Assembly: GCF_001921205.1 (NCBI RefSeq)
Contig: NZ_MSIE01000002.1
Location: 124,001-188,000 of the forward strand
DNA from: Actinophytocola xanthii
GTDB taxonomy: Bacteria; Actinomycetota; Actinomycetes; Mycobacteriales; Pseudonocardiaceae
Reading direction: 5' to 3'
Length of the DNA stretch: 64,000 bases
The notes under the pieces are model-generated. The model saw only the letters and a program-made list of their open reading frames with translations, searched no databases and was not told where the DNA came from. How positions within the stretch are numbered: the first letter of the stretch is position 1; each line of letters begins with the position of its first letter. The position numbers and the translations under genes were made by a program. This document shows, one piece after another, positions 33,004 through 42,866 of this stretch.

Positions 33004-33636
33004 TCAGGCCTGGCTGATCGTGGCCGCCACCGCGCCCAGTGCGATGTAGACCAGGCCGCTGGACAGGTCCAACCTGCGGCGAGCGGTCGCGGTCCGGCGC
33101 AGGCGTCCGGACAGGGCGCTCGCCAGCAGCGCGTAGGTGCCGTCGCTGAGGATGCCCAGCACGATGAACCCGATGCCGAAGAACAGCAGCTGCCAGCCGA
33201 CCGAGCCCCGGGCCGGGTCGACGAACTGCGGCAGGAACGCCACGAAGAACACGAGCGTCTTCGGGTTCAGGATGTTCACGAGCACGCCCTGGGTGAAGAT
33301 CCGCCAGTTCGACATCCGCGGCGGCTCGGCCACCGAACCGTCGTCGGTCCTGGTCAGCCAGAGCTTCTGCACGCCGAGCCAGACCAGGTAGGCCACGCCC
33401 AGCCACTTCACGATCTGGAACGCCGTCGTGGACGCCAGCAGCAGCGCCGACAGGCCCAGCGACGTCAGTACCACGTAGAAGATGGAACCGACGTGGATCC
33501 CGAGCACGGACACCAAACCGGCGGTCCGGCCCTGTGCCACCGTCCTGGTCACGATGTAGACCACCGCGGGACCGGGCACCACGAGCAGCGCCAGGGTCGC
33601 CGTGACGAACATCAGCAGTGTCGAGATCGTTGGCAT
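33004..33636 (-). CDS. LysE/RhtB-family amino-acid exporter
   Basis: The 210-residue protein has six hydrophobic segments and the family signature VVPGPAVVYIVTRTVAQGRTAGL near the N-terminus, then LVWLGVQKLW and VNILNPKTLVFFVAFLPQF. Members export amino acids and analogues. ATG at 33636 has AAGGAGGG upstream, inside the end of the previous gene. It is the last gene of an operon with the racemase-superfamily enzyme and TrpB2, so it probably exports the product of the 33-40 kb cluster. Confidence 0.9.
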   Translation of the reverse strand: MPTISTLLMFVTATLALLVVPGPAVVYIVTRTVAQGRTAGLVSVLGIHVGSIFYVVLTSLGLSALLLASTTAFQIVKWLGVAYLVWLGVQKLWLTRTDDGSVAEPPRMSNWRIFTQGVLVNILNPKTLVFFVAFLPQFVDPARGSVGWQLLFFGIGFIVLGILSDGTYALLASALSGRLRRTATARRRLDLSSGLVYIALGAVAATISQA

Positions 33637-33640
33637 GTTG

Positions 33641-34450
33641 CTAACCCGCCCTCCTTGCGAGTGGTGTGGTGAACAGCCGGCCGACTCCCAGGGCCGTGTC
33701 GCGGATCCCAGCCATGCGCAGGCACTGCCACAGGCACGCCTGGTTCGAGGTCACCACCGGCACCCCCAGGTCCCGTTCCAGCGGTTCGATCGCTTCCAGC
33801 GTCCGGAAGCCGCTTCCGGGAATCAGTATGCCGTCGGCCTCCGCCGGGAACGAGTCCCGTGCCTGCCGGTACACCTCTTCGGGTCGCACCTCCCACTGGC
33901 CTCCCAGGTCGTAGATCTCGAACGTCTCCCGGTCGCGCCACCCCGGACCGAGGTCGAACCGCTTCTGGCCGGCGAACGGGAAGCCGGTGGCGGTGAAGTA
34001 CCTCTCCGCCGCGGCGTAGCTCGTCCGCGTGAACCACGGCGGGCTCACCAGGTGCGGTCGCGCGATGCCGACCGCTCGCATCGCGTCGAGCATCGCCAGC
34101 GGTGCCGTCGTCACCGGCGTGCCGCCCGCCCGCTTGCTCGCCTGCTCGCAGAACAGCTCGTCGAACCCCGGTCCGGCGAGGAAGCTGCTCGAGCCGAAGC
34201 ACAGGCAGATCACGTCCAGGCGCAACTGGCCGAGCTGCTCGAGGCCGCGGGCGATGTCCGGCGACTCCGCGAGCGCGGCCGCGTGGTCGCCCTCGAAGTC
34301 CGAGCCCGGTCTGCGGGGGCTGTCGAACCGGGCCGCGTGAACGGTGACCCCGGGCGGTGCCATCGCCCAGATCTCGGCCTCCGGCACCGCGTCCTTGTGG
34401 ATGACGAGGATGCCGATCCTCGCCCGCCAGCCCCAGCCCTCGGCAGTCAC
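33641..34450 (-). CDS. Asp/Glu racemase superfamily enzyme (maleate isomerase/arylmalonate decarboxylase-like)
   Basis: The 269-residue protein has two related halves. The first carries VICLCFGSSSFLAGPGFDE and the second ADGILIPGSGFRTLEAIEPLERDLGVPVVTSNQACLWQCL, the paired segments that hold the active-site Cys residues in maleate cis-trans isomerases and related decarboxylases. GTG at 34450 overlaps the TrpB2 stop as GTGA and is preferred to an ATG eight codons earlier. Family chemistry is cofactor-free proton removal or return next to a carboxylate, so it may epimerise, isomerise or decarboxylate the amino-acid-derived product or precursor. Exact reaction unknown. Confidence 0.8.
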   Translation of the reverse strand: MTAEGWGWRARIGILVIHKDAVPEAEIWAMAPPGVTVHAARFDSPRRPGSDFEGDHAAALAESPDIARGLEQLGQLRLDVICLCFGSSSFLAGPGFDELFCEQASKRAGGTPVTTAPLAMLDAMRAVGIARPHLVSPPWFTRTSYAAAERYFTATGFPFAGQKRFDLGPGWRDRETFEIYDLGGQWEVRPEEVYRQARDSFPAEADGILIPGSGFRTLEAIEPLERDLGVPVVTSNQACLWQCLRMAGIRDTALGVGRLFTTPLARRAG

Positions 34451-35829
34451 CGTGCCGCCCCCGCGAGCTCCCACACCTGCTCGGGAATGCTCGACCTGGC
34501 GGCGATGACGGTCTCCTCGTCGAGCTCCATGTCGTCGAGCTCACCGGCGAAGAACCGCTCGTAGGCGGTCAGGTCGAAGTGCCCGTGCCCAGACAGTCCG
34601 AAAAGGATGGTCTGGGGCCGGCCCTCCGCCTTGCAGCGCAACGCCTCGTCGATCGCGACGCGGATCGCGTGCGAGGACTCCGGTGCCGGCAGGATGCCCT
34701 CGGCCCTGGCGAACCGGACGGCGGCGTCGAAGCAACGCCGCTGGGTGACCGCCCTGGCCTCCATCAGCCCTTCCTCCACGGCCCGGCTGACCAGCTGGCC
34801 CATGCCGTGCGCGCGCAGCCCGCCGGCGTGGACGGTCGGCGGGACGAAGCCGTGTCCGAGGGTGTGCATGCGGAACAGGGGGGTCAGGCCGGCGCTGTCG
34901 GCGTAGTCGTAGGCGATCGTGCCCCTGGTGAGCGTCGGGCACGCGGCCGGTTCGGCGGCGATCACCCGCACACGCTCGCCGCCGTGCAGCTGCGCGCCGA
35001 GGAACGGGAACGACAGACCGGCGAGGTTGCTGCCGCCGCCCGCGCAGCCGACGACGATGTCGGGGTAGTCGCCGGCGAGGTCGAACTGGCGGATGGCCTC
35101 CTGGCCGATGACCGTCTGGTGGGCCAGGACGTGGTTGGACGCGCTGCCGAGGACGTAGCCGAGCGAGTCGTCGGCCCCGGCCGCCTCGAGCGCCTCGGAG
35201 GTGGCGATCCCGAGACTGCCCGGGCAGTCCGGGTCGACGGCGAGGACGGCGCGCCCGGCCGCGGTCTCCGTACTGGGGCTGGGCACGCACACCGCACCGA
35301 ACGCCTCCATCAGCGAGCGGCGGTACGGCTTCTGGGTGAAGCTGACCTTCACCATGTAGACCTTGGCGGACAGACCGAACATCGCGGCGCTCTGGGCGAG
35401 CGCGCTGCCCCACTGGCCGGCTCCGGTCTCGGTGACCAGGCCGCGCTTGCCGGCCTGCTTGTTGTAGAACACCTGGGCCACAGCGGTGTTCGGCTTGTGG
35501 CTGCCGGTGGGCGCCACGCCCTCGTACTTGTAGTAGATGCGGGCAGGCGTGTCGAGCTCCGCCTCCAGCCTGCGCGCGCGGAACAGCGGCGAGGGGCGCC
35601 ACTGCGCGTAGATCTGGCGGACCGGCTCGGGGATCTCCCACTCGCGTTCGGTGCTGAGCTCCTGGTCGATGAGCGGCTCCGGCATCGTCCGCGCCATCTC
35701 GTCCCGCGTCACCGGCCGGCCGGTGTCCGGGTTCAGCGGCGGGTGCAGCGGCGGAAGGTCGGCGGCGAGGTTGTACCAGGTGGTAGGGATGTCGCGCTCG
35801 TCGAGCAGGAACTTGATGCGGTCGACCAT
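34447..35829 (-). CDS. TrpB2-type PLP-dependent tryptophan synthase beta-like enzyme
   Basis: The 460-residue fold-type II PLP enzyme has the Schiff-base Lys in GSHKPNTA (Lys112), the ETGAGQWG loop and the phosphate-binding GCAGGGSNLAG. The N-terminal extension (PPLHPPLNPDTGRPV) and overall length mark the TrpB2 subfamily. There is no trpA, trpC or other tryptophan gene nearby, so stand-alone beta-replacement of serine with another nucleophile is plausible. ATG at 35829 follows GGAGGTATCG. It heads the operon TrpB2, racemase-like enzyme, LysE exporter, divergent from the adenylation/carrier operon. It may make a non-proteinogenic amino acid for that pathway. Confidence 0.88.
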   Translation of the reverse strand: MVDRIKFLLDERDIPTTWYNLAADLPPLHPPLNPDTGRPVTRDEMARTMPEPLIDQELSTEREWEIPEPVRQIYAQWRPSPLFRARRLEAELDTPARIYYKYEGVAPTGSHKPNTAVAQVFYNKQAGKRGLVTETGAGQWGSALAQSAAMFGLSAKVYMVKVSFTQKPYRRSLMEAFGAVCVPSPSTETAAGRAVLAVDPDCPGSLGIATSEALEAAGADDSLGYVLGSASNHVLAHQTVIGQEAIRQFDLAGDYPDIVVGCAGGGSNLAGLSFPFLGAQLHGGERVRVIAAEPAACPTLTRGTIAYDYADSAGLTPLFRMHTLGHGFVPPTVHAGGLRAHGMGQLVSRAVEEGLMEARAVTQRRCFDAAVRFARAEGILPAPESSHAIRVAIDEALRCKAEGRPQTILFGLSGHGHFDLTAYERFFAGELDDMELDEETVIAARSSIPEQVWELAGAAR

Positions 35830-36345
35830 CGATACCTCCAGAGTTCACGTTCGAAGACGGCGTGGCTGGGCGCGCCGATATCCCGAGAGGCGGAGGGGTG
35901 GCCGGTCGGGCCCGCGCGCCTGGCGTCGCAGTGGTCGTTCGACCTGCCGCAGGAGAAGTTAGACAGCGCTGGCAACACGAGCAAGAGTCCGGCCGGGTGA
36001 TTGTCGGCTTTCCGGTCACCCCGGATTTTCCCAGGTCGGTTCTCGAAGTATTTCACGGAACGTAGGTGAGGCGCCGAAATTCGGGTGAAGAGGTATAGAC
36101 CACGGGACCCTCTCCGGTGCGCGGAGCGTGATAGTCGCGACTACCGAGCGGGGTTGAGACTCTGTGTGGTCGGCGCGTGTTTGTGTCCGGTTGACTTCGT
36201 TTTGCTCCGAACGGCGTATTGTCCGGCGTGTCAGAGCGGTGCTAAAACCATCTCCGGATCCCGCGAGCCGTGACATTCCGGTGCCGGGTCCGCTCCCGGA
36301 GTCACCTCTTTCCCGGTAGTCAGCCGCTCATTGGTGAGGAAGAGA
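35830..36345. promoter_or_regulatory. Divergent control region of the 33-40 kb cluster
   Basis: This about 515-bp gap between the TrpB2 and adenylation genes holds no convincing gene. The right half (35990-36240) is markedly richer in A/T than the surroundings. It includes TTGACT at 36191 followed by TATTGT about 20 bases later, a possible though over-spaced plus-strand promoter. The TrpB2 ribosome site lies at the left edge. No clear long palindrome was found. Confidence 0.5.
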
Positions 36346-37800
36346 TTGATTGCCGTGTATTCCTCGAACCCATTGGTGCTCGCCGTGGTCGAGCACGCAC
36401 GCAGCCTACCGTCCGAGCCGGCCCTGTCCTGGCGGGGAAAAACCGTCAGCTTCGCCGAACTCGCCGAAATGACGAGAACCGCGGCGTCGGTGGTGGCGGG
36501 CCTTCCGCCCGGACCCGTCGGCATCGTCGGGGAGAAGGCGCCGGAGACGGTCGCCCTCGTCCTCGGCTGCCTGGCCGCCGGCCGCCGCTTCCTCATCCCC
36601 GCGCCGACCCTGCCGGTACCGACGCTGTCGAGCCTGTACCGCCGAGCGGGGTGTGTCGCAATTGTGTCCACATCGGACATGGGGGACGGCGCGAACGGTC
36701 TGGCTACCGATGTCGTCGACGTCCGCGCCTCGGCGGGCGAGCCGCCCGAGGTCGAGGCCGACGACGTCTCGTTCATGCTGACCACGTCGGGCTCGACCGG
36801 AACCCCCAAGATCGTGCCGCTGACCGTGGCAGCGGTCGAGCGCTTCGCGCGATGGGCAGGCGCGGAGTTCGACCTCGGTCCCGGACGGCGGGTGCTGAAC
36901 TACGCGCCGCTCAACTTCGACCTGTGCCTGCTGGAGGTGTGGGCGACGCTGCGTTGCGGTGGCTGCGTGGTGCTGGCCGACCCCGAGCAGGCGACCAACG
37001 GCGCCGCGCTGGCCGAACTGGTCGCGGGTCAGCGCGTGCACGTCGTCCAGGCCGTGCCGATGTTCTACGAGCTGCTCCTGCCGGCCGTGCGCGCGCCACT
37101 CGACTCGGTCGACCGGGTCCTGGTGACCGGCGACGTGTTCCGCCCCGCGCTGCTCCCGAGGCTCCGCGAGGTCTTCCCGAACGCCCGGCTCACGAACGTC
37201 TACGGCTGCACGGAGACCAACGACAGCTTCACCCAGGACCTCCGGGCTGACATGGACGTGATCCCCATGGGAGCGCCGATTCCCGGCGTGCGCGCGCTGC
37301 TGGTGGCCGAGGACGGCAGCGTGCTGCACGGTTCCGGTGTCGGTGAGCTGCTCGTCAGCACGCCGTTCCAGACGCCCGGCTACCTGGACTCCCCGGACCG
37401 CTACGTGCCGCACCCCGAAGGGGCCGACGAGCTGCGCTACTTCCGGTCCGGCGACCTGGTGCGCCGCACCGACACCGGCGCGCTGGTCCTCGAAGGACGG
37501 ACGGACTCGCGGGTGAAGATCCGCGGCCAGCAGGTGAACACCCAACAGGTCGAGCAGGTCCTGCTCGACCACCCCGCCGTGCTTGAGGCGGCCGCGCTGG
37601 TGGCACCCGACCCGGTCGCCGGCAAGCGGCTGCACGTCGTCGTCCGGACCGACGGGACGGCGAACAGCCTGGTGCTGCGCAGGCACTGCGTGGACCGACT
37701 GCCCCGGGCGGCAGTCCCCTCGACGCTGCGGGTCGCCACCGACCCGTTGCCCCGCACCGCCACCGGAAAGGTGGACCGCAAACACCTGACCGCAACCTGA
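36346..37800 (+). CDS. Stand-alone amino-acid adenylation enzyme (NRPS A domain)
   Basis: The 484-residue protein has NRPS core motifs: A3 LTTSGSTGTPK, A4-like NYAPLNFDLCLLEVW (the Asp that grips the alpha-amino group is present), A5 NVYGCTETND, A7 YFRSGDLVRR, A8 GRTDSRVKIRGQQVNTQQVE and A10 PRTATGKVDRKHL. There are no C, T or TE domains. It would load an amino acid on the separate carrier protein encoded 7 bp downstream. Start is uncertain: TTG 36346 has the best ribosome site spacing (GAGGA, 5 bases), while TTG 36331, GTG 36334 and GTG 36355 are possible. Substrate cannot be read safely by eye. Confidence 0.9.
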   Translation: MIAVYSSNPLVLAVVEHARSLPSEPALSWRGKTVSFAELAEMTRTAASVVAGLPPGPVGIVGEKAPETVALVLGCLAAGRRFLIPAPTLPVPTLSSLYRRAGCVAIVSTSDMGDGANGLATDVVDVRASAGEPPEVEADDVSFMLTTSGSTGTPKIVPLTVAAVERFARWAGAEFDLGPGRRVLNYAPLNFDLCLLEVWATLRCGGCVVLADPEQATNGAALAELVAGQRVHVVQAVPMFYELLLPAVRAPLDSVDRVLVTGDVFRPALLPRLREVFPNARLTNVYGCTETNDSFTQDLRADMDVIPMGAPIPGVRALLVAEDGSVLHGSGVGELLVSTPFQTPGYLDSPDRYVPHPEGADELRYFRSGDLVRRTDTGALVLEGRTDSRVKIRGQQVNTQQVEQVLLDHPAVLEAAALVAPDPVAGKRLHVVVRTDGTANSLVLRRHCVDRLPRAAVPSTLRVATDPLPRTATGKVDRKHLTAT

Positions 37801-37807
37801 GGAGCTG

Positions 37808-38086
37808 GTGATCCAGATGGACAACACCGAGATCATCACTCGGTACCTGGTGGAGGAGTTCCTCCCGGACGTCGACGTGACCGAGCTGCCCCCGGACTAC
37901 GACCTGTTCGCCGGCGGCGTCGTCGACAGCCTCGCGCTGCTCAAGATCATCGACTGGCTGGGCGAACGGTTTCACCTGAACCTCGAGGACATCGAGATCG
38001 CGCCGGACAACTTCCGGACCGTGCACGCCATCGACTCGTTCATCGGCGCCGCCGGCGCCCACCTGGTTGGGAAGGGGATGTCATGA
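37808..38086 (+). CDS. Stand-alone peptidyl/acyl carrier protein
   Basis: The 92-residue protein is a four-helix carrier with the phosphopantetheine site in GGVVDSLALLKI (Ser41). GAGGAG precedes the start; GTG 37808 and ATG 37817 are both possible. It is encoded between the adenylation enzyme and the cupin, and its stop overlaps the cupin ATG. It should hold the activated amino acid as a thioester while the downstream flavoenzyme and cupin act on it, as carrier proteins do in PltL/RedO-type pyrrole pathways. Confidence 0.9.
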   Translation: MIQMDNTEIITRYLVEEFLPDVDVTELPPDYDLFAGGVVDSLALLKIIDWLGERFHLNLEDIEIAPDNFRTVHAIDSFIGAAGAHLVGKGMS

Positions 38087-38457
38087 TCGTTCGCACGTTG
38101 TCCGACGCCAAGGTCGTCGACTGGGGCAACGGCCTCAGCAGGCGTTTCCTGCTCGCCGAGGACGGCATGGGCTACACCGTGACCGACACCATCGTCTCGG
38201 CCGGGACCAAGTCCCGGTTGCAGTACAGCAACCACCTCGAGGCCTGTTACTGCATCGAGGGCGAGGGCGAGGTCGTCGACCTCGACGGCAACAGCCACAA
38301 GCTGACCCCGGGCACGCTGTACGCGCTTGACCAGCACGACGCGCACTTCCTGGTCGCCGCCGAGGACACGGACCTGCGGCTGGTGTGCGTCTTCAGCCCC
38401 GCGCTGCACGGCGACGAACGGCACTCGCTGGACGAGGCGCGGTTCTCCCACTACTGA
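38083..38457 (+). CDS. Ectoine-synthase-like (EctC-family) cupin
   Basis: The 124-residue single-domain cupin matches EctC almost end to end: MIVRTL start, RRFLLAEDGMGYTVTDT, NHLEACYCIEGEGEV, GTLYALDQHDAHFL and LRLVCVFSP. The residues corresponding to the EctC metal ligands are kept (Glu53, Tyr80, His88, with EctC-like spacing). EctC closes a tetrahydropyrimidine ring by loss of water from acetyl-diaminobutyrate. EctA, EctB and EctD genes are absent here, and the gene is coupled by ATGA to a carrier protein, so it probably performs a related cyclisation or water elimination on a tethered or released amino acid. This is not an osmolyte operon. Confidence 0.88.
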   Translation: MIVRTLSDAKVVDWGNGLSRRFLLAEDGMGYTVTDTIVSAGTKSRLQYSNHLEACYCIEGEGEVVDLDGNSHKLTPGTLYALDQHDAHFLVAAEDTDLRLVCVFSPALHGDERHSLDEARFSHY

Positions 38458-38474
38458 CCGACAGGGTGACAACC

Positions 38475-39629
38475 ATGCTCGAGTGGACAGAGGAGCAGCA
38501 GGAGCTGCGTGCCGGGCTCAGGCGGTGGTGCGACGCGCTCAACGACGGCCGGGCCGAACGGGAGCGCGCGAGCGTGTTCGACCACACCGCGTGGAAGCTG
38601 GTCGGTGAGTCGGGAGTGCTCGGTCTGCCGTTCGGCACGGAGTGGGGCGGGCTCGGACAGGGCCTGTTGACGACGATGTACGTGCTCGAGGAGCTCGGGC
38701 ACAGCTGCCGTGACGGCGGGTTGAGCTTCTCGGTCACGACACACATGGTCAGCACCGGGGTTCCGGTGCAGCGCTTCGGATCGGCGTACCTGAAGGACCG
38801 CTACCTGCCCGGGATCTGCGAGGGGTCGACGATCGGTGCCCACGCGATCAGCGAGCCGGACAGCGGTTCCGACGCGCTGAACATGCGCACCACCGCCACC
38901 AGGCGCGGCGAGGGTTGGGTCCTGTCCGGCAGCAAGACCTTCGTCAGCAACGGGCCGGTGGCCGACCTGGTGGTCGTCTACGCCAGGACCGACCCGGACG
39001 CTGGCCCGCTGGGCGTGACCGCGTTCCTCGTCGAGCGCGACACCCCAGGTCTGTCCGTCGGCAGGCCGATCGAGAAGATGGGTTTGCGGACCTCGCCCTT
39101 CGCGGAGGTCTTCCTCGACGACTGCGTCGTCCCGGCGGCGAACGTGATCGGCAGGCCCGGCGGCGGTTTCCTGGTGCTGGACCACGTGATGAAGTGGGAG
39201 ATCCTGTGCTCGTTCATCGTCAATGTGGGCCAGATGCGCCACCGCCTCGAGCGGTGCGTCGACTACGCGCGGAGCCGGACCCAGTTCGGCCAGCCGATCG
39301 GCTCGTTCCAGTCGGTGGCCAACCGGATCGTCGACATGCGAACGGCGACCGAGACGGCCAGCCGCTGGCTCTACGACACCGCCACCAGGATGGAACGCGG
39401 TGAGAACGTGACAGTGGACATCGCGACGAGCAAGCTGGTCGCCAGCCAGGCCAATGTGGACACCGCGCTGTCGGCGGTCCAGGTGTTCGGCGGCAACGGC
39501 TACACGGCCGAGTACGGCCTGGAGGCGGAACTGCGGGACGCCGTCGCCGGTGTCATCTACTCCGGAACATCCGACATCCAACGCAACAGAATCGCCCGCA
39601 TGATGGGTCTGGACAAGAGGAAGGGATGA
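38475..39629 (+). CDS. Acyl-CoA-dehydrogenase-like flavoprotein, probable carrier-tethered aminoacyl dehydrogenase
   Basis: The 384-residue FAD enzyme has the family blocks AHAISEPDSGSD, GWVLSGSKTFVSNG, RTQFGQPIGSFQ and QVFGGNGYTAEYGLE. The usual catalytic Glu of medium/short-chain enzymes (IYEGT) is Ser here (IYSGT, Ser363). A Glu in MKWEILCSF (Glu242) sits where isovaleryl-CoA and prolyl-carrier dehydrogenases (PltE/RedW type) have their base. With the adenylation enzyme and carrier next door, alpha/beta desaturation of a carrier-bound aminoacyl thioester is likely. ATG at 38475 lies 17 bp after the cupin stop; the in-frame upstream extension is inside the cupin gene. Confidence 0.85.
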   Translation: MLEWTEEQQELRAGLRRWCDALNDGRAERERASVFDHTAWKLVGESGVLGLPFGTEWGGLGQGLLTTMYVLEELGHSCRDGGLSFSVTTHMVSTGVPVQRFGSAYLKDRYLPGICEGSTIGAHAISEPDSGSDALNMRTTATRRGEGWVLSGSKTFVSNGPVADLVVVYARTDPDAGPLGVTAFLVERDTPGLSVGRPIEKMGLRTSPFAEVFLDDCVVPAANVIGRPGGGFLVLDHVMKWEILCSFIVNVGQMRHRLERCVDYARSRTQFGQPIGSFQSVANRIVDMRTATETASRWLYDTATRMERGENVTVDIATSKLVASQANVDTALSAVQVFGGNGYTAEYGLEAELRDAVAGVIYSGTSDIQRNRIARMMGLDKRKG

Positions 39630-39630
39630 C

Positions 39631-40326
39631 GTGGACGAGTCCACCATCGCCCCGACGGAGTTCCTCGACCACGAGTCACCACAGGTCCGCGAGCTCGTGG
39701 CGAGCACCATCGGGGACGAGAAGAACCTCACCAGCCGCGCGGTCGCGCTGTTCTACGCCGTGCGCGACGGGCTGCGCTACGAGGTCTACGGCAGCGACCT
39801 GTCCCGAGAGGGCATGCGCGCCAGCGCGATCATCGACCGCGGCTACGGTTTCTGCATTCACAAGTCGTTGGTCTACGCCGCCGCCGTCCGCGCGGCCGGC
39901 ATCCCGAGCCGTCTGGTGTTCGGGGACGTCCGCAACCACCTGGCGTCCCCGCGCCTGCGCGAGCTGGTCGGCGGCGACCTGTTCCGGTTCCACTGCCTGA
40001 CCGAGGTCCAGCTCGACGGCCGCTGGATCAGGGCCACACCGGTGTTCAACAGGATGCTGTGCCGCCTGTACCGGATCGCCCCGCTCGACTTCGACGGCCG
40101 GACCGACAGCGTCTACCACCCGTACGACGAGCAGGGTCGTCGGCACATGGAGTTCGTCCGCTGGCACGGCGAGTTCGCCGACTTCCCCTACGACCTCGTC
40201 GTGAACGGCATCCGGGACGCGCACCCCCGGCTGTTCGCGAGCAGCCGGCACACCACCGGCGGCTCCCTCGAGGAGGAGTCGGCGGACCAGCGTCGCCTGC
40301 TGGAGCGCTCGTCGGCAGTGGTCTGA
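39631..40326 (+). CDS. Transglutaminase-like cysteine-fold protein
   Basis: The 231-residue protein has a transglutaminase-like core with Cys75 in DRGYGFCIHKSLVYAAAVRAAG and His121 in FRFHCLTEV; the third residue, usually Asp, is not obvious (ATPVFN follows). Such domains can act as amidases, proteases or acyltransferases. AdmF of the andrimid pathway, a transglutaminase homologue, joins a carrier-bound acyl group to an amine. Coupled by position to the dehydrogenase (GTG 1 bp after its stop), it is the best candidate for product release or amide formation in this cluster. Confidence 0.82.
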   Translation: MDESTIAPTEFLDHESPQVRELVASTIGDEKNLTSRAVALFYAVRDGLRYEVYGSDLSREGMRASAIIDRGYGFCIHKSLVYAAAVRAAGIPSRLVFGDVRNHLASPRLRELVGGDLFRFHCLTEVQLDGRWIRATPVFNRMLCRLYRIAPLDFDGRTDSVYHPYDEQGRRHMEFVRWHGEFADFPYDLVVNGIRDAHPRLFASSRHTTGGSLEEESADQRRLLERSSAVV

Positions 40327-40367: not shown

Positions 40368-42866
40368 TCACCTGTCTGCGGCATGGACCAACCAGTCGAT
40401 GGTATGGCTGACCGAGTTCGTGGACGGGTCGATGACCGAGATGGTTCGGTTGTCGCTGGCGACGTAGACGTGCTCGCCGGAACTGTCGACGGCGACGGCC
40501 GTGGGGTGCGGTCCTACCCGGATCGGCGGGCCGGCCACCGAGCTGGTGGCCACGTCGACCACGGACACCGTGTCGGACTCGGCGCTGGGCACGTACATGC
40601 GTGAGTTGTCCGGCAGCAGCGCGAGGTCCGCCGGCGCCTCGACAGTGATCGACTCGCTGGTCATCGCGCCCGGTTCGACCAGGGACAGGCGGTCCTTCTC
40701 GGCGCAGCCGAGCCAGAACGAGCCGGTGGGGCTGGCGAGCACCGTCTCGCCGCACATGGTGGCGTCCTCGACGTGGCCGTTGTCGATGCCGACCCAGGCG
40801 ATCCAGGAGCCCGCCGCGATGTAGACGCGCTGGTCGGTCGGGTCCACGGCGACATCGCGTGGTTCCTCGGGTAGGCGTACGGTGCCCGGCCGCACGGTCC
40901 CGGTGAAGGTGTCGACAGCCTGGAGGGTGTTTGGCTCCCGGGTGATCACGTAGGCGGTGCGGCCGTCCCGCCGGAACGCGACCCCGACCGGGATGCCGTC
41001 CAGCGGGATCGTCTGCTCGTTCATCCCGTGCGTCCGGAACACCGACAGGCTGCGCCGCGTGCGGAACCCCGTGACGAAGACCCGCTCGCCGAGGGGATGG
41101 GCGGCGAGGCCCGCGCCCATCCCGGGCGCGAGCTCGGCCCCGAGCTCGCGCTGGTCGACCGTCTCCCGGGTGACCGTGTCGACGACGGTCAAGGTCGGCG
41201 GGTTGGTGGAGGTGAGGTAGAGGCGCTCGCCGTCCGGGCTGACCGTCATCGCGCTCACCAGCGGCGCCGGCTGCTCGCTGCCGCCGCTCGACCCCTCGTT
41301 CCGGTTCAGCAGGAGCACGAGGGACACCACCAGGGCCCCCACCACGGTGGCGGCGAGAGCGGGGACCAGCACCAGCCGCACCCGGCGGGAACGGAACCAC
41401 GGCTCGCTGGTGTTCCCGGCGGCGGTGTCGACAGTGGGATCGGGCTCGGTCGCCGCGGTGCCGGGTCCGGCCGCGATGGCGGGAGTGGGGGCGGTGTCGG
41501 GCGCGGTGCTGGGGTCGGTCGTGTTGTCGGGGGTGGGGGCGGTGTCGGTCGCGGGGCTGGTGTCCGCCGCGGTGCCGGGTCCGGCCGGGACGGCGGGGGT
41601 GGCCGCGGTGTCTTCCGCGGGGCTGGTGTCGGTCGCGGGGCTGGTGTCCGCCGCGGTGCCGGGTCCGGCCGGGACGGCGGGGGTGGCCGCGGTGTCTTCC
41701 GCGGGGCTGGTGTCGGTCGCGGGGCTGGTGTCCGCCGCGGTGCCGGGTCCGGCCGGGACGGCGGGGGTGGCCGCGGTGTCTTCCGCGGGGCTGGTGTCGG
41801 TCGCGGGGCTGGTGTCCGCCGCGGTGCCGGGCTCGGCCGGGATGGCGGGGGTGGCCGCGGCGTCTGGCGCGGGACCGGTGTGCGTCGCGGGTGGTTCAGG
41901 CACCGGGACGGCCGGGGGAGGGGAGGTCAGCGCTCGGTAGCGGGCGGTCGCGGCGGAGGACACCTGTTTGCTGTCGTCCTCGGCGAGGGTCGCGATCGCC
42001 TCGCGGACGCGGGTCCGGACCGACTCGTTCCCGATGCGGAGCAGGTGGTCCAGGCCCTCCAGGGCAGCCAGGCGGTCCGCGGCGATGGGGCTGCGCAGGG
42101 CGTTGCTCAGGTACGCGGGCAGGGTCCAGTTGACGTTGCGGGCGATGACCGTCCGGCCCTCGACGTTGTCCTGGCGCTTGGGCCGCTGGCGGGGCATCTC
42201 CTCGACGACGCGTTCGTGGACGTAGCCGTACAGCTCGTCCAGCGTGATGTCGCCGTCGCCGTCCAGGTCGGCGCTGCCGTCGCGCAGTCCGGCCACCAGG
42301 TGGCGGGTGAACACCGACTGCGCCGCCTCGCCGTGCGGAGTGTTGCCCTCGAACGAGTACTGGGTCGAGTCGGAGGCGGTCAGGACCGTCCGGCCGCGGC
42401 CCTGGAACCGTTCCAGCGCGTGGACCTCGGGGTCGGCCTTGGGCAGCCGACCGGCCGGGAACGCACCGCTGTAGCAGCAGTCCAGGATCAGCACCTGCCG
42501 CCGCGAGGCGCACCCGCTCATCGCCTGGTCGATCTGCTCGGCCGGGAGCGCGGTGAACAGCAGGCTGTCCCGGCGCGTGTTTGTCATCGCCAGGTAGAGC
42601 CGACCGCCGTCGTCCTTGAGACCGTGGCCGGTGAAGTACAGCAGCACGAGGTCGTCGCGGCGACAGTCCCGGTAGAGCTCGCCGATGGCCTCGCCGACGC
42701 GGTGGTGTGGCTCGTTCACCAGCGTGTCGACCTCGAAGCCCGCGATGTCCGGGTCCGCGAGCACCTCGGCCAGCGCCTCGGCGTCGTGCGGCGGCGAGGT
42801 CAGGCGCCGCAGCCCGGGGTCGAGATACTCGTAGGTCGCGATCAGCAGCGCGAGACGCCGGCCCAT
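40368..42866 (-). CDS. Membrane-anchored caspase-like (C14) protease with repeat stalk and beta-propeller
   Basis: The 832-residue protein has an N-terminal caspase/metacaspase domain (about 1-240) with His81 in FTGHGLKDDGG and Cys131 in ILDCCYSGAF. An acidic DLDGDGDITLDEL segment near the p10 part resembles a calcium loop. A helical segment (about 245-310) follows, then a Pro/Ala/Thr/Asp-rich stalk (about 315-490) that includes four 28-residue repeats, one transmembrane helix (about 495-520), and a YVTN/SMP-30-like beta-propeller (about 530-832) with repeated VDT/VDP blade ends. The caspase side is predicted to be cytoplasmic and the propeller outside. The gene begins 3 bp after the EACC1-like gene stop, so they are co-expressed. 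Probable role is proteolytic suicide or a conflict response triggered through a sensor; target unknown. Confidence 0.88.
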   Translation of the reverse strand: MGRRLALLIATYEYLDPGLRRLTSPPHDAEALAEVLADPDIAGFEVDTLVNEPHHRVGEAIGELYRDCRRDDLVLLYFTGHGLKDDGGRLYLAMTNTRRDSLLFTALPAEQIDQAMSGCASRRQVLILDCCYSGAFPAGRLPKADPEVHALERFQGRGRTVLTASDSTQYSFEGNTPHGEAAQSVFTRHLVAGLRDGSADLDGDGDITLDELYGYVHERVVEEMPRQRPKRQDNVEGRTVIARNVNWTLPAYLSNALRSPIAADRLAALEGLDHLLRIGNESVRTRVREAIATLAEDDSKQVSSAATARYRALTSPPPAVPVPEPPATHTGPAPDAAATPAIPAEPGTAADTSPATDTSPAEDTAATPAVPAGPGTAADTSPATDTSPAEDTAATPAVPAGPGTAADTSPATDTSPAEDTAATPAVPAGPGTAADTSPATDTAPTPDNTTDPSTAPDTAPTPAIAAGPGTAATEPDPTVDTAAGNTSEPWFRSRRVRLVLVPALAATVVGALVVSLVLLLNRNEGSSGGSEQPAPLVSAMTVSPDGERLYLTSTNPPTLTVVDTVTRETVDQRELGAELAPGMGAGLAAHPLGERVFVTGFRTRRSLSVFRTHGMNEQTIPLDGIPVGVAFRRDGRTAYVITREPNTLQAVDTFTGTVRPGTVRLPEEPRDVAVDPTDQRVYIAAGSWIAWVGIDNGHVEDATMCGETVLASPTGSFWLGCAEKDRLSLVEPGAMTSESITVEAPADLALLPDNSRMYVPSAESDTVSVVDVATSSVAGPPIRVGPHPTAVAVDSSGEHVYVASDNRTISVIDPSTNSVSHTIDWLVHAADR
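41541..41876. repeat. Four tandem 84-bp repeats within the caspase-like gene
   Basis: Units begin at 41541, 41625, 41709 and 41793. The first three look identical base for base and the fourth diverges in its last third. Each codes for 28 residues (PGTAADTSPATDTSPAEDTA and the following ATPAVPAG). The period is a multiple of 3, so copy changes keep the frame. It is a flexible stalk between caspase and membrane. Confidence 0.95.

Follow-up and report, generated by a model that had tools for sequence, protein, structure and literature searches.

Which product arises from a group of genes that combines a stand-alone adenylation enzyme, a peptidyl carrier protein, an EctC-like cupin, a flavin adenine dinucleotide (FAD) dehydrogenase and a transglutaminase-like protein (TG), and which neighbours take part in its formation? 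The question is raised by a locus of Actinophytocola xanthii (contig NZ_MSIE01000002.1), analysed within a stretch of 64,000 nucleotides that is called the window here. An earlier note, made from the sequence alone, had described a five-gene cluster at this place. The five genes stood, all of them being intact and tightly packed on the plus strand; nevertheless, the description was incomplete, as a divergent operon that bears on the identity of the product was missed. The cluster comprises eight genes (33004-40326), i.e., the five-gene plus operon and a divergent operon for a TrpB-like enzyme, an EutA-like protein and a LysE exporter, which are regarded as one unit because relatives also carry TrpB-like, EutA-like and exporter genes together with the five-gene module. 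With a probability of roughly 0.58, we read it as a specialised-metabolite cluster in which a glutamine-derived aminopyrrole would be coupled to serine and exported as an amino acid.

The proposed ring-making module and its relation to showdomycin

The combination of ring-making genes had not been recognised in the earlier note; judged by gene content, it is already known from the nucleoside showdomycin (sdm genes of Streptomyces showdoensis). In the proposed route, as given in a review, L-glutamine is cyclised by SdmE, and the resulting 2-amino-1-pyrroline-5-carboxylate is activated by SdmC and borne by the carrier SdmD; after its oxidation and hydrolysis, ribose 5-phosphate is attached by the YeiN-like SdmA and the phosphate is taken off by SdmB, the remaining steps being non-enzymatic and the route being called incompletely understood (PMC8724604). 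In the window, the EctC-like cupin would convert L-glutamine by loss of water to 5-amino-3,4-dihydro-2H-pyrrole-2-carboxylate (equal to 2-amino-1-pyrroline-5-carboxylate), the adenylation enzyme would activate this cyclic amidine acid and then load it onto the carrier, and the FAD dehydrogenase would remove two electrons to yield an aromatic 2-amino-1H-pyrrole-5-carbonyl-carrier. Such an aromatising oxidation would pull the unfavourable cyclisation forward. TG is proposed, by analogy, as a hydrolase of the carrier thioester, which would release the aminopyrrole acid. Judged from sequence comparison, the steps up to this acid very probably follow the proposed showdomycin route. The cyclic amidine that the earlier note had put forward as an intermediate appears to be right, and so does its transglutaminase-like releasing enzyme; the order assumed there, desaturation prior to cyclisation, is likely the reverse, with cyclisation preceding the two-electron oxidation to the aromatic aminopyrrole. 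The gene order of one locus with a PsuG-type C-glycosynthase (L121), namely adenylation enzyme, carrier, EctC, dehydrogenase, TG, PsuG, haloacid dehalogenase (HAD) phosphatase and major facilitator superfamily (MFS) gene, fits the account of the sdm genes in the review (PMC8724604). An EutA-like gene lies downstream in L121 on the opposite strand, with 284 bits by its own profile and no Pfam family match at 0.001.

Genes not conserved together had been set beforehand as the finding that would refute the earlier note, and this check turned out in favour of the note. The EctC protein was searched against 297 Pseudonocardiaceae genomes, 225 of which matched; among the matches listed, identities fell from 80% to about 47-50%, followed by the bulk at about 42-48%, and 60 loci, each at most 20 kb long, were taken from the upper identity range and its border. 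A named genome collection contributed 80 further loci, the best 80 of 586, so the counts are loci found and not frequencies. Including the window, 141 sources were obtained, 18 of which were dropped for identical EctC DNA, leaving 123 distinct loci. A full module was defined by matches to the adenylation enzyme, carrier and dehydrogenase beside EctC (profile above 60 bits, within 9 kb); locus counts refer to six-frame profile matches, and simple gene calls based on GC (guanine-cytosine) position mis-set some starts. Adenylation enzyme, carrier, EctC and dehydrogenase occurred together in 52/60 Pseudonocardiaceae loci by tblastn (51/60 by profiles), and the full module was found in 99/123 distinct loci with EctC similarity, the window included, and in none of 19 control loci with an EctC in the ectoine range, among which only one dehydrogenase (L178) and one AMP-binding protein (L185) were matched. 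Five of the 24 loci without a full module hold part of it (L043, L072, L102, L104, L131) and are maybe cut or mis-scored. Across the phylum, the EctC profile matched in 40/396 genomes, only two of which reached module-range scores, with 220 and 187 bits (next best 124.5), one of them being the window's own genome; the module thus seems to be concentrated in some families. Likewise, the distances of the module proteins correlate, with r of 0.69-0.80 wherever the adenylation enzyme is one of the pair and 0/500 permutations as high, shared descent being uncorrected.

The EctC-like cupins retain the iron ligands E53, Y80 and H88 as well as the Ser, Arg, Thr, Tyr and Phe contacts in 99/99 module loci. 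The conserved Ser follows the contact Trp at a distance of five residues in 99/99 module EctCs and of two in 19/19 controls, and the position of Asn38 is occupied by Thr, Ala or Cys in 99/99 and by His in 19/19. In the Paenibacillus EctC, Asn38 holds the substrate carboxylate (PMC6344544). The residue changes fit a different substrate, which might be free glutamine or a thioester. For EctC itself, the conversion of glutamine to the same cyclic amidine is described in two papers as an inefficient and reversible side reaction (PMC5924519, PMC6344544), one of them giving a very low efficiency and an equilibrium towards glutamine (PMC5924519); both regard it as unclear what "orphan EctC" proteins do. 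All 24 module-less EctC-like loci share the Trp spacing of the module (e.g., L144, L150, L160, L162, L163, L166, L170, L171), and their hosts include Corynebacterium, Pseudomonas, Burkholderia, Rhizobiales and one cyanobacterium.

The family names given to the five genes agree with Pfam and NCBIfam, the carrier being the weakest match with 19.1 bits, just below the Pfam cut-off of 20.8; its attachment Ser is present in 99/99 module loci, the window included. The adenylation enzyme of the window has the code DLLQLTVDSK, and the pattern D[LI][LF]Q[VILMA]T[VIL]D[ST]K is common to 98/99 module loci, including 11/11 of those with PsuG, the only exception being L152, the longest branch of the tree. 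In view of this near-universal code, the module most likely handles one substrate in every class of loci described below. The best structural matches of the dehydrogenase in PDB are 4irn, a prolyl-acyl carrier protein dehydrogenase (9.5e-92), and 5zw0 (9.5e-86). Its nearest relatives are hence the prolyl-carrier dehydrogenases, in line with the PltF/PltL/PltE-like logic assumed in the earlier note; nevertheless, it remains below the NCBIfam equivalog cut-offs for PigA (394 bits, cut-off 500) and RedW (381 bits, cut-off 650). Glu242, which we take to be the catalytic Glu in the isovaleryl-CoA-dehydrogenase-like position, is kept in 99/99 module loci. A PltE-like pathway from proline to pyrrole was considered and rejected, as the dehydrogenase falls below these cut-offs and EctC has no role in such a pathway. 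TG was found in 71/99 module loci, with Cys75 and His121 kept and the third-triad Asp replaced by Thr136 in 71/71, and all 28 TG-less loci carry TrpD.

Partners of the module and the proposed fate of the ring

What is new compared to showdomycin is what follows ring-making, i.e., a TrpB-like enzyme where the C-glycosynthase stands. The module loci were sorted by partner genes into five classes, with 9/99 falling outside them. Class I has a TrpB-like enzyme without a set of tryptophan genes (19/99 loci including the window, 9 with EutA). Class II combines at least three of the TrpD/F/C/A-like genes with TG (16/99; 11 with UbiD, 6 with TrpB), and class III carries at least three of them but is TG-less (28/99; 22 with a ketosynthase). 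Class IV features the PsuG-type C-glycosynthase (11/99; MFS and EutA-like genes in 11/11 each) and class V a cytidine-deaminase-like protein (16/99; small multidrug resistance (SMR) exporter in 15/16). TrpB and PsuG, found in 25 and 11 loci, never occur together among the 99. On a tree of four module proteins, evaluated by a quick method, the classes need 20 changes compared to a mean of 60.6 in shuffles. Class III loci (e.g., L044, L048-L053, L093, L106, L113, L146, L154, L159) also hold a MaoC-like gene (21/28) and an aminotransferase-fold gene (14/28), and the carrier-bound acyl group may serve there as a polyketide starter. In class V (e.g., L073, L074, L079, L081, L133, L135-L137, L149, L153, L157, L168), TG and EutA are accompanied by a MarR regulator (15/16) and a DsbA-like protein (13/16), a gene set that would suit the export of a thiol-reactive product.

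The TrpB-like enzyme of the window has TrpB chains as best PDB matches (6hul, 4qys, 6hte). Among the module TrpBs, Lys112 is kept in 25/25 and Glu134, corresponding to Glu109, in 24/25, with Asp in L034; in TrpB, these are the Schiff-base Lys and the Glu that activates indole, respectively. In a quick tree that also holds 24 non-module rows, the 25 module TrpBs fall together in a single clade (100 in the Shimodaira-Hasegawa-like approximate likelihood ratio test, SH-aLRT), with a clean split between class I (support 99) and class II (support 95). Seven TrpB matches of at least 67% identity were found in 80 family genomes, the own one included, all of them in module loci, and the next match followed at 60%. 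At the 24 non-module TrpB loci (4.2-4.4 kb), the dehydrogenase profile matched four times with 74-186 bits, and EctC, carrier, TG and adenylation enzyme were matched in none. The canonical trpBA lies elsewhere in the own genome, which has a third, TrpB2-like paralogue as well (53%; C57:22185-23468, L173); the gene of 432 residues directly beside this paralogue has, by eye, the look of an acyl-CoA reductase or an aldehyde dehydrogenase, and another TrpB-using pathway may be encoded there. In the proposed pathway, the electron-rich ring carbon next to the amino group would attack the serine-derived aminoacrylate, which would lead to 3-(2-amino-5-carboxy-1H-pyrrol-3-yl)alanine. From the gene content, such a coupling of the aminopyrrole to serine seems slightly favoured.

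The EutA-like protein might help to take off the ring carboxylate, a decarboxylase role suggested by gene content that is rather doubtful. With 76 bits it stays below the cut-off of TIGR02990 EutA (318), and structures of arylmalonate decarboxylase (AMDase) are among its PDB matches. The position of AMDase Cys188 is Gly220 in 39/39 sequences. The N-terminal catalytic position, which holds Cys in EutA and maleate isomerase and Gly in AMDase, reads Phe93 in 39/39 when aligned without gaps; the absence of this Cys is less sure, because one alignment is gapped there and an adjacent Cys occurs in 20/39. EutA occurs only together with TG (39/39) and never with TrpD (0/39) or UbiD (0/12 UbiD loci). 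The kind of exporter goes with the class of the locus; EamA or LysE exporters were found near 12/19 TrpB-type loci compared to 1/80 of the other module loci. LysE would export the amino acid. The precursor of showdomycin oxidises in air to a thiol-reactive maleimide, and the product of the window may do the same; by this analogy, a maleimide is tentatively considered as its final form.

In classes II and III, 44 loci hold at least three of the TrpD/F/C/A-like genes, with a TrpA match over the threshold in 43, and all five Trp-like genes are present in L033, L035, L037, L039, L041 and L098. The catalytic residues are kept, i.e., Glu/Asp of TrpA (43/43), Cys/Asp of TrpF (44/44), the Asp-Glu of TrpD (44/44) and, in the TrpC-like protein, Glu, Lys, Lys and Glu (44/44) as well as Asn (42/44). 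On the other side, GTGGD of TrpD is changed to GTGGG in 44/44, its Asn109 position is Ser in 43/44, and the Glu210 position of TrpC is Ala in 43/44; these shared changes lie near the acceptor or phosphoribosyl pyrophosphate sites. The pattern fits an amino-bearing ring other than anthranilate as the substrate, and classes II and III apparently represent a second, non-indole "tryptophan" pathway. In our reading, class II would yield an analogue of indole or tryptophan built on pyrrolo[2,3-b]pyrrole, with UbiD (11/16) removing the ring carboxylate, a pathway that is not that of the window. The nucleophile of TrpB would be the 2-aminopyrrole itself in class I and a fused ring made from it in class II. 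Three TrpB-type loci (L077, L078, L080) are followed by anthranilate synthase TrpE/TrpG, TrpD- and TrpC-like genes and additionally carry a cytochrome P450 and a fusion of FAD-monooxygenase and pyridoxal phosphate (PLP) decarboxylase.

In titles and abstract openings of the openly licensed papers listed, no report was recognised in which the module is combined with TrpD/F/C/A or a TrpB-like enzyme. For the pyrrolamide anthelvencin, an EctC-like protein reportedly provides the same cyclic amidine, of which no mention was met among the papers listed. It is conceivable, at somewhat less than even odds, that Actinobacteria use the glutamine-derived 2-aminopyrrole module as an interchangeable ring supplier for a nucleoside, an aminopyrrolyl or maleimidyl alanine, or a fused pyrrolopyrrole. 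If this were true, a C-glycosynthase would lead to the nucleoside showdomycin, a TrpB-like enzyme to a new exported, thiol-reactive and tryptophan-like amino acid, and the TrpD/F/C/A/B-like set to a fused pyrrolopyrrole and hence to the second "tryptophan" pathway; moreover, many "orphan" EctC proteins would gain a testable function. Both the predicted amino acid and the parallel pathway in relatives come with defined substrates, and a product that resembles an amino acid and reacts with thiols could plausibly act as an antimetabolite.

Weighing of the readings

Several points weigh against the reading as an exported, serine-coupled aminopyrrole. The sdm sequence of S. showdoensis was not found among the loci collected, and the link to showdomycin therefore runs via the review and the sdm-like loci. 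The adenylation code matches none of the familiar glutamine codes, which is taken as neutral; the cyclised substrate, activated by SdmC according to the review, may suit it. Ten of the 19 TrpB-type loci lack EutA, seven of these lack EamA/LysE as well, and MFS genes lie near 6/19 TrpB-type loci too. The mutual exclusion of EutA and UbiD (Fisher p 0.003, uncorrected for ancestry) is confounded by shared ancestry, as the classes cluster on the tree. Furthermore, TG could be an amide synthase, and a PsuG gene, the only one of the own genome, lies on a different contig (C122, 366 bits), although it has the look of a housekeeping gene.

Transglutaminase-like amide synthases are exemplified by AdmF of andrimid. 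If TG acted in this manner, linking an amine to the aminopyrrolyl group, this amine partner or its precursor would come from the TrpB-like enzyme. The transglutaminase fold with its Cys and His, and the presence of TG in 19/19 TrpB-type loci, agree with this; nevertheless, TG is found equally in the 16/16 deaminase-type and 11/11 PsuG-type loci, the latter being the showdomycin class, for which a hydrolysis step is given in the review (PMC8724604), the third triad residue is Thr instead of Asp, and the TG-less loci, all with TrpD and 22 of 28 with a ketosynthase, fit another use of the carrier-bound acyl group. An amide synthase is thus regarded as unlikely. Equally improbable appears a merely protective or supplying role of the TrpB-like and EutA-like proteins (e.g., a spare tryptophan synthase as a guard against a tryptophan-like product, or serine turnover), with free aminopyrrole acid or a simple maleimide as the product. 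It would suit L077, L078 and L080, in which genes for anthranilate synthase and for TrpD- and TrpC-like proteins lie close to the module, and four loci that hold the module and TG but no named partner enzyme in the counted stretch (L066, L068, L119, L145). However, 16/19 TrpB-type loci hold none of the TrpD-, TrpA-, TrpC- or TrpF-like genes within 9 kb, and TrpB alone would therefore add no tryptophan capacity there without an indole supply, and the module TrpBs form their own clade.

The PsuG gene on C122 would allow for a showdomycin-type nucleoside cluster whose C-glycosynthase is encoded elsewhere in the genome, and the window EutA groups with those of PsuG-type loci (SH-aLRT 94, not starred), sharing the motifs CFGS and PGSGF with them. 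By path length, its nearest rows after the closest relative (L032) are TrpB-type ones. PsuG and a PfkB-type kinase are the usual pair of pseudouridine breakdown. The C122 gene is 37-43% identical to 14 module PsuG rows (two pairs being duplicate records), compared to 53-93% between L121 and other module PsuGs; the gene that follows it codes, by eye, for a sugar kinase of the PfkB type, and matches to the remaining module families are absent from this stretch of 14.5 kb. It is taken as a housekeeping gene because of this low identity and the kinase neighbour. As the IndigA profile of PsuG has no match in the 64 kb window either and TrpB and PsuG exclude each other among the module loci, a remote glycosynthase is considered very unlikely. 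Even less can be said for ordinary ectoine-type osmolyte synthesis beside unrelated neighbours, although the window EctC exceeds the ectoine synthase cut-offs of Pfam (130 bits, cut-off 27) and NCBIfam (144.7, cut-off 128). The own genome has a single EctC and no EctA over the cut-off (best 25.5 bits, cut-off 120.6), and neither EctA nor EctB is among ten proteins scanned around the cluster, EctB not having been sought genome-wide. Module EctCs differ in Trp spacing and Asn38 position in 99/99, and their genes stand in a conserved order with carrier-type ones; module co-occurrence and missing EctA refute this explanation.

Gene layout and comparison with known systems

The coordinates of the cluster are listed in Table 1. 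The plus-strand genes follow each other at 7 bp, -4 bp (ATGA overlap), 17 bp and 1 bp, with all open reading frames where the earlier note had placed them. The adenylation enzyme starts with TTG behind an AGGA stretch just 5' of it (by eye), its open reading frame itself opening at 36331. The GTG start of the EutA-like gene at 34450 overlaps the stop of TrpB (GTGA), and the mechanical reading frame extends to 34474. The closest relative, L032, carries these eight genes, arranged likewise. In other loci (e.g., L034, L059, L061-L064, L067), the genes for the TrpB-like enzyme, an EamA exporter and the EutA-like protein come after the five genes on a single strand. A consensus scan revealed no sigma-70-like site in the divergent intergenic region, and the only promoter-like match of the promoter and terminator scan was placed within the carrier gene; compared to L032, the region matches only in the first ~50 bases past the TrpB start and in one exact word of 14 bases. 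Just 3' of the cluster, a caspase-fold gene (Peptidase_C14, 40368-42866, minus strand) features near-identical repeats in a proline/threonine-rich stretch and a C-terminus with a weak, beta-propeller-like match.

Table 1. Genes of the cluster and the region between its two operons (positions in the window).
Feature	Position	Strand	Match or remark
LysE-type exporter	33004..33636	minus	PF01810 6.1e-35; third gene of divergent operon
EutA/AMDase-like protein (Asp/Glu racemase superfamily)	33641..34450	minus	PF17645 2.2e-17
TrpB2-like PLP enzyme	34447..35829	minus	NF009057 671 bits, cut-off 366
Divergent intergenic region separating both operons	35830..36345		
Stand-alone adenylation enzyme (SdmC-like)	36346..37800	plus	PF00501 1.2e-53, PF13193 5.9e-11
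Peptidyl carrier protein (SdmD-like)	37808..38086	plus	PP-binding 0.0016; attachment Ser41 in DSL
EctC-like cupin cyclase (SdmE-like)	38083..38457	plus	PF06339 Ectoine_synth 6.1e-38
FAD dehydrogenase, prolyl-carrier dehydrogenase group	38475..39629	plus	acyl-CoA dehydrogenase C-terminal domain 7.1e-36
Transglutaminase-like protein (TG)	39631..40326	plus	PF01841 Transglut_core 9.9e-16

With ectoine synthase and orphan EctC proteins, the window cupin shares the fold, the three iron ligands and, as proposed, the ring that EctC makes inefficiently from glutamine; it differs by the Trp located three residues earlier, by Thr, Ala or Cys at the Asn38 position of module EctCs and by the carrier-based cluster context. 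The prolyl-carrier dehydrogenases PltE, RedW and PigA with their adenylation and carrier partners are nearest to the window dehydrogenase and follow the same logic of a tethered ring, whereas the window enzyme lies below their equivalog cut-offs and presumably acts on the cyclic amidine, so that a single two-electron step would be enough for aromaticity. Like a TrpB2-type tryptophan synthase beta chain, the TrpB-like enzyme exceeds the NCBIfam TrpB-like cut-off and keeps the catalytic Lys and Glu, but no TrpA adjoins it and its clade is separate from the 24 other TrpB rows. The EutA-like protein belongs to the superfamily of AMDase, EutA and maleate isomerase, from which it is set apart by scores below the family cut-offs and by the Gly at the Cys188 position. 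With the showdomycin cluster, the window has in common the role of an EctC-like cyclase, the stand-alone adenylation enzyme, the carrier, the oxidation and the hydrolysis which would lead from L-glutamine to a 2-aminopyrrole carboxylate; cyclase and hydrolase were matched by gene content, as the available review passages name no families for them. In place of the PsuG-type C-glycosynthase, the window carries a TrpB-like enzyme and a LysE exporter, and no HAD phosphatase corresponding to SdmB turned up when ten proteins around the cluster were scanned, no systematic search having been made. The ring-making module of showdomycin appears as a single instance of a unit that is widespread, with 99 loci here, and that is paired with at least five downstream gene sets.

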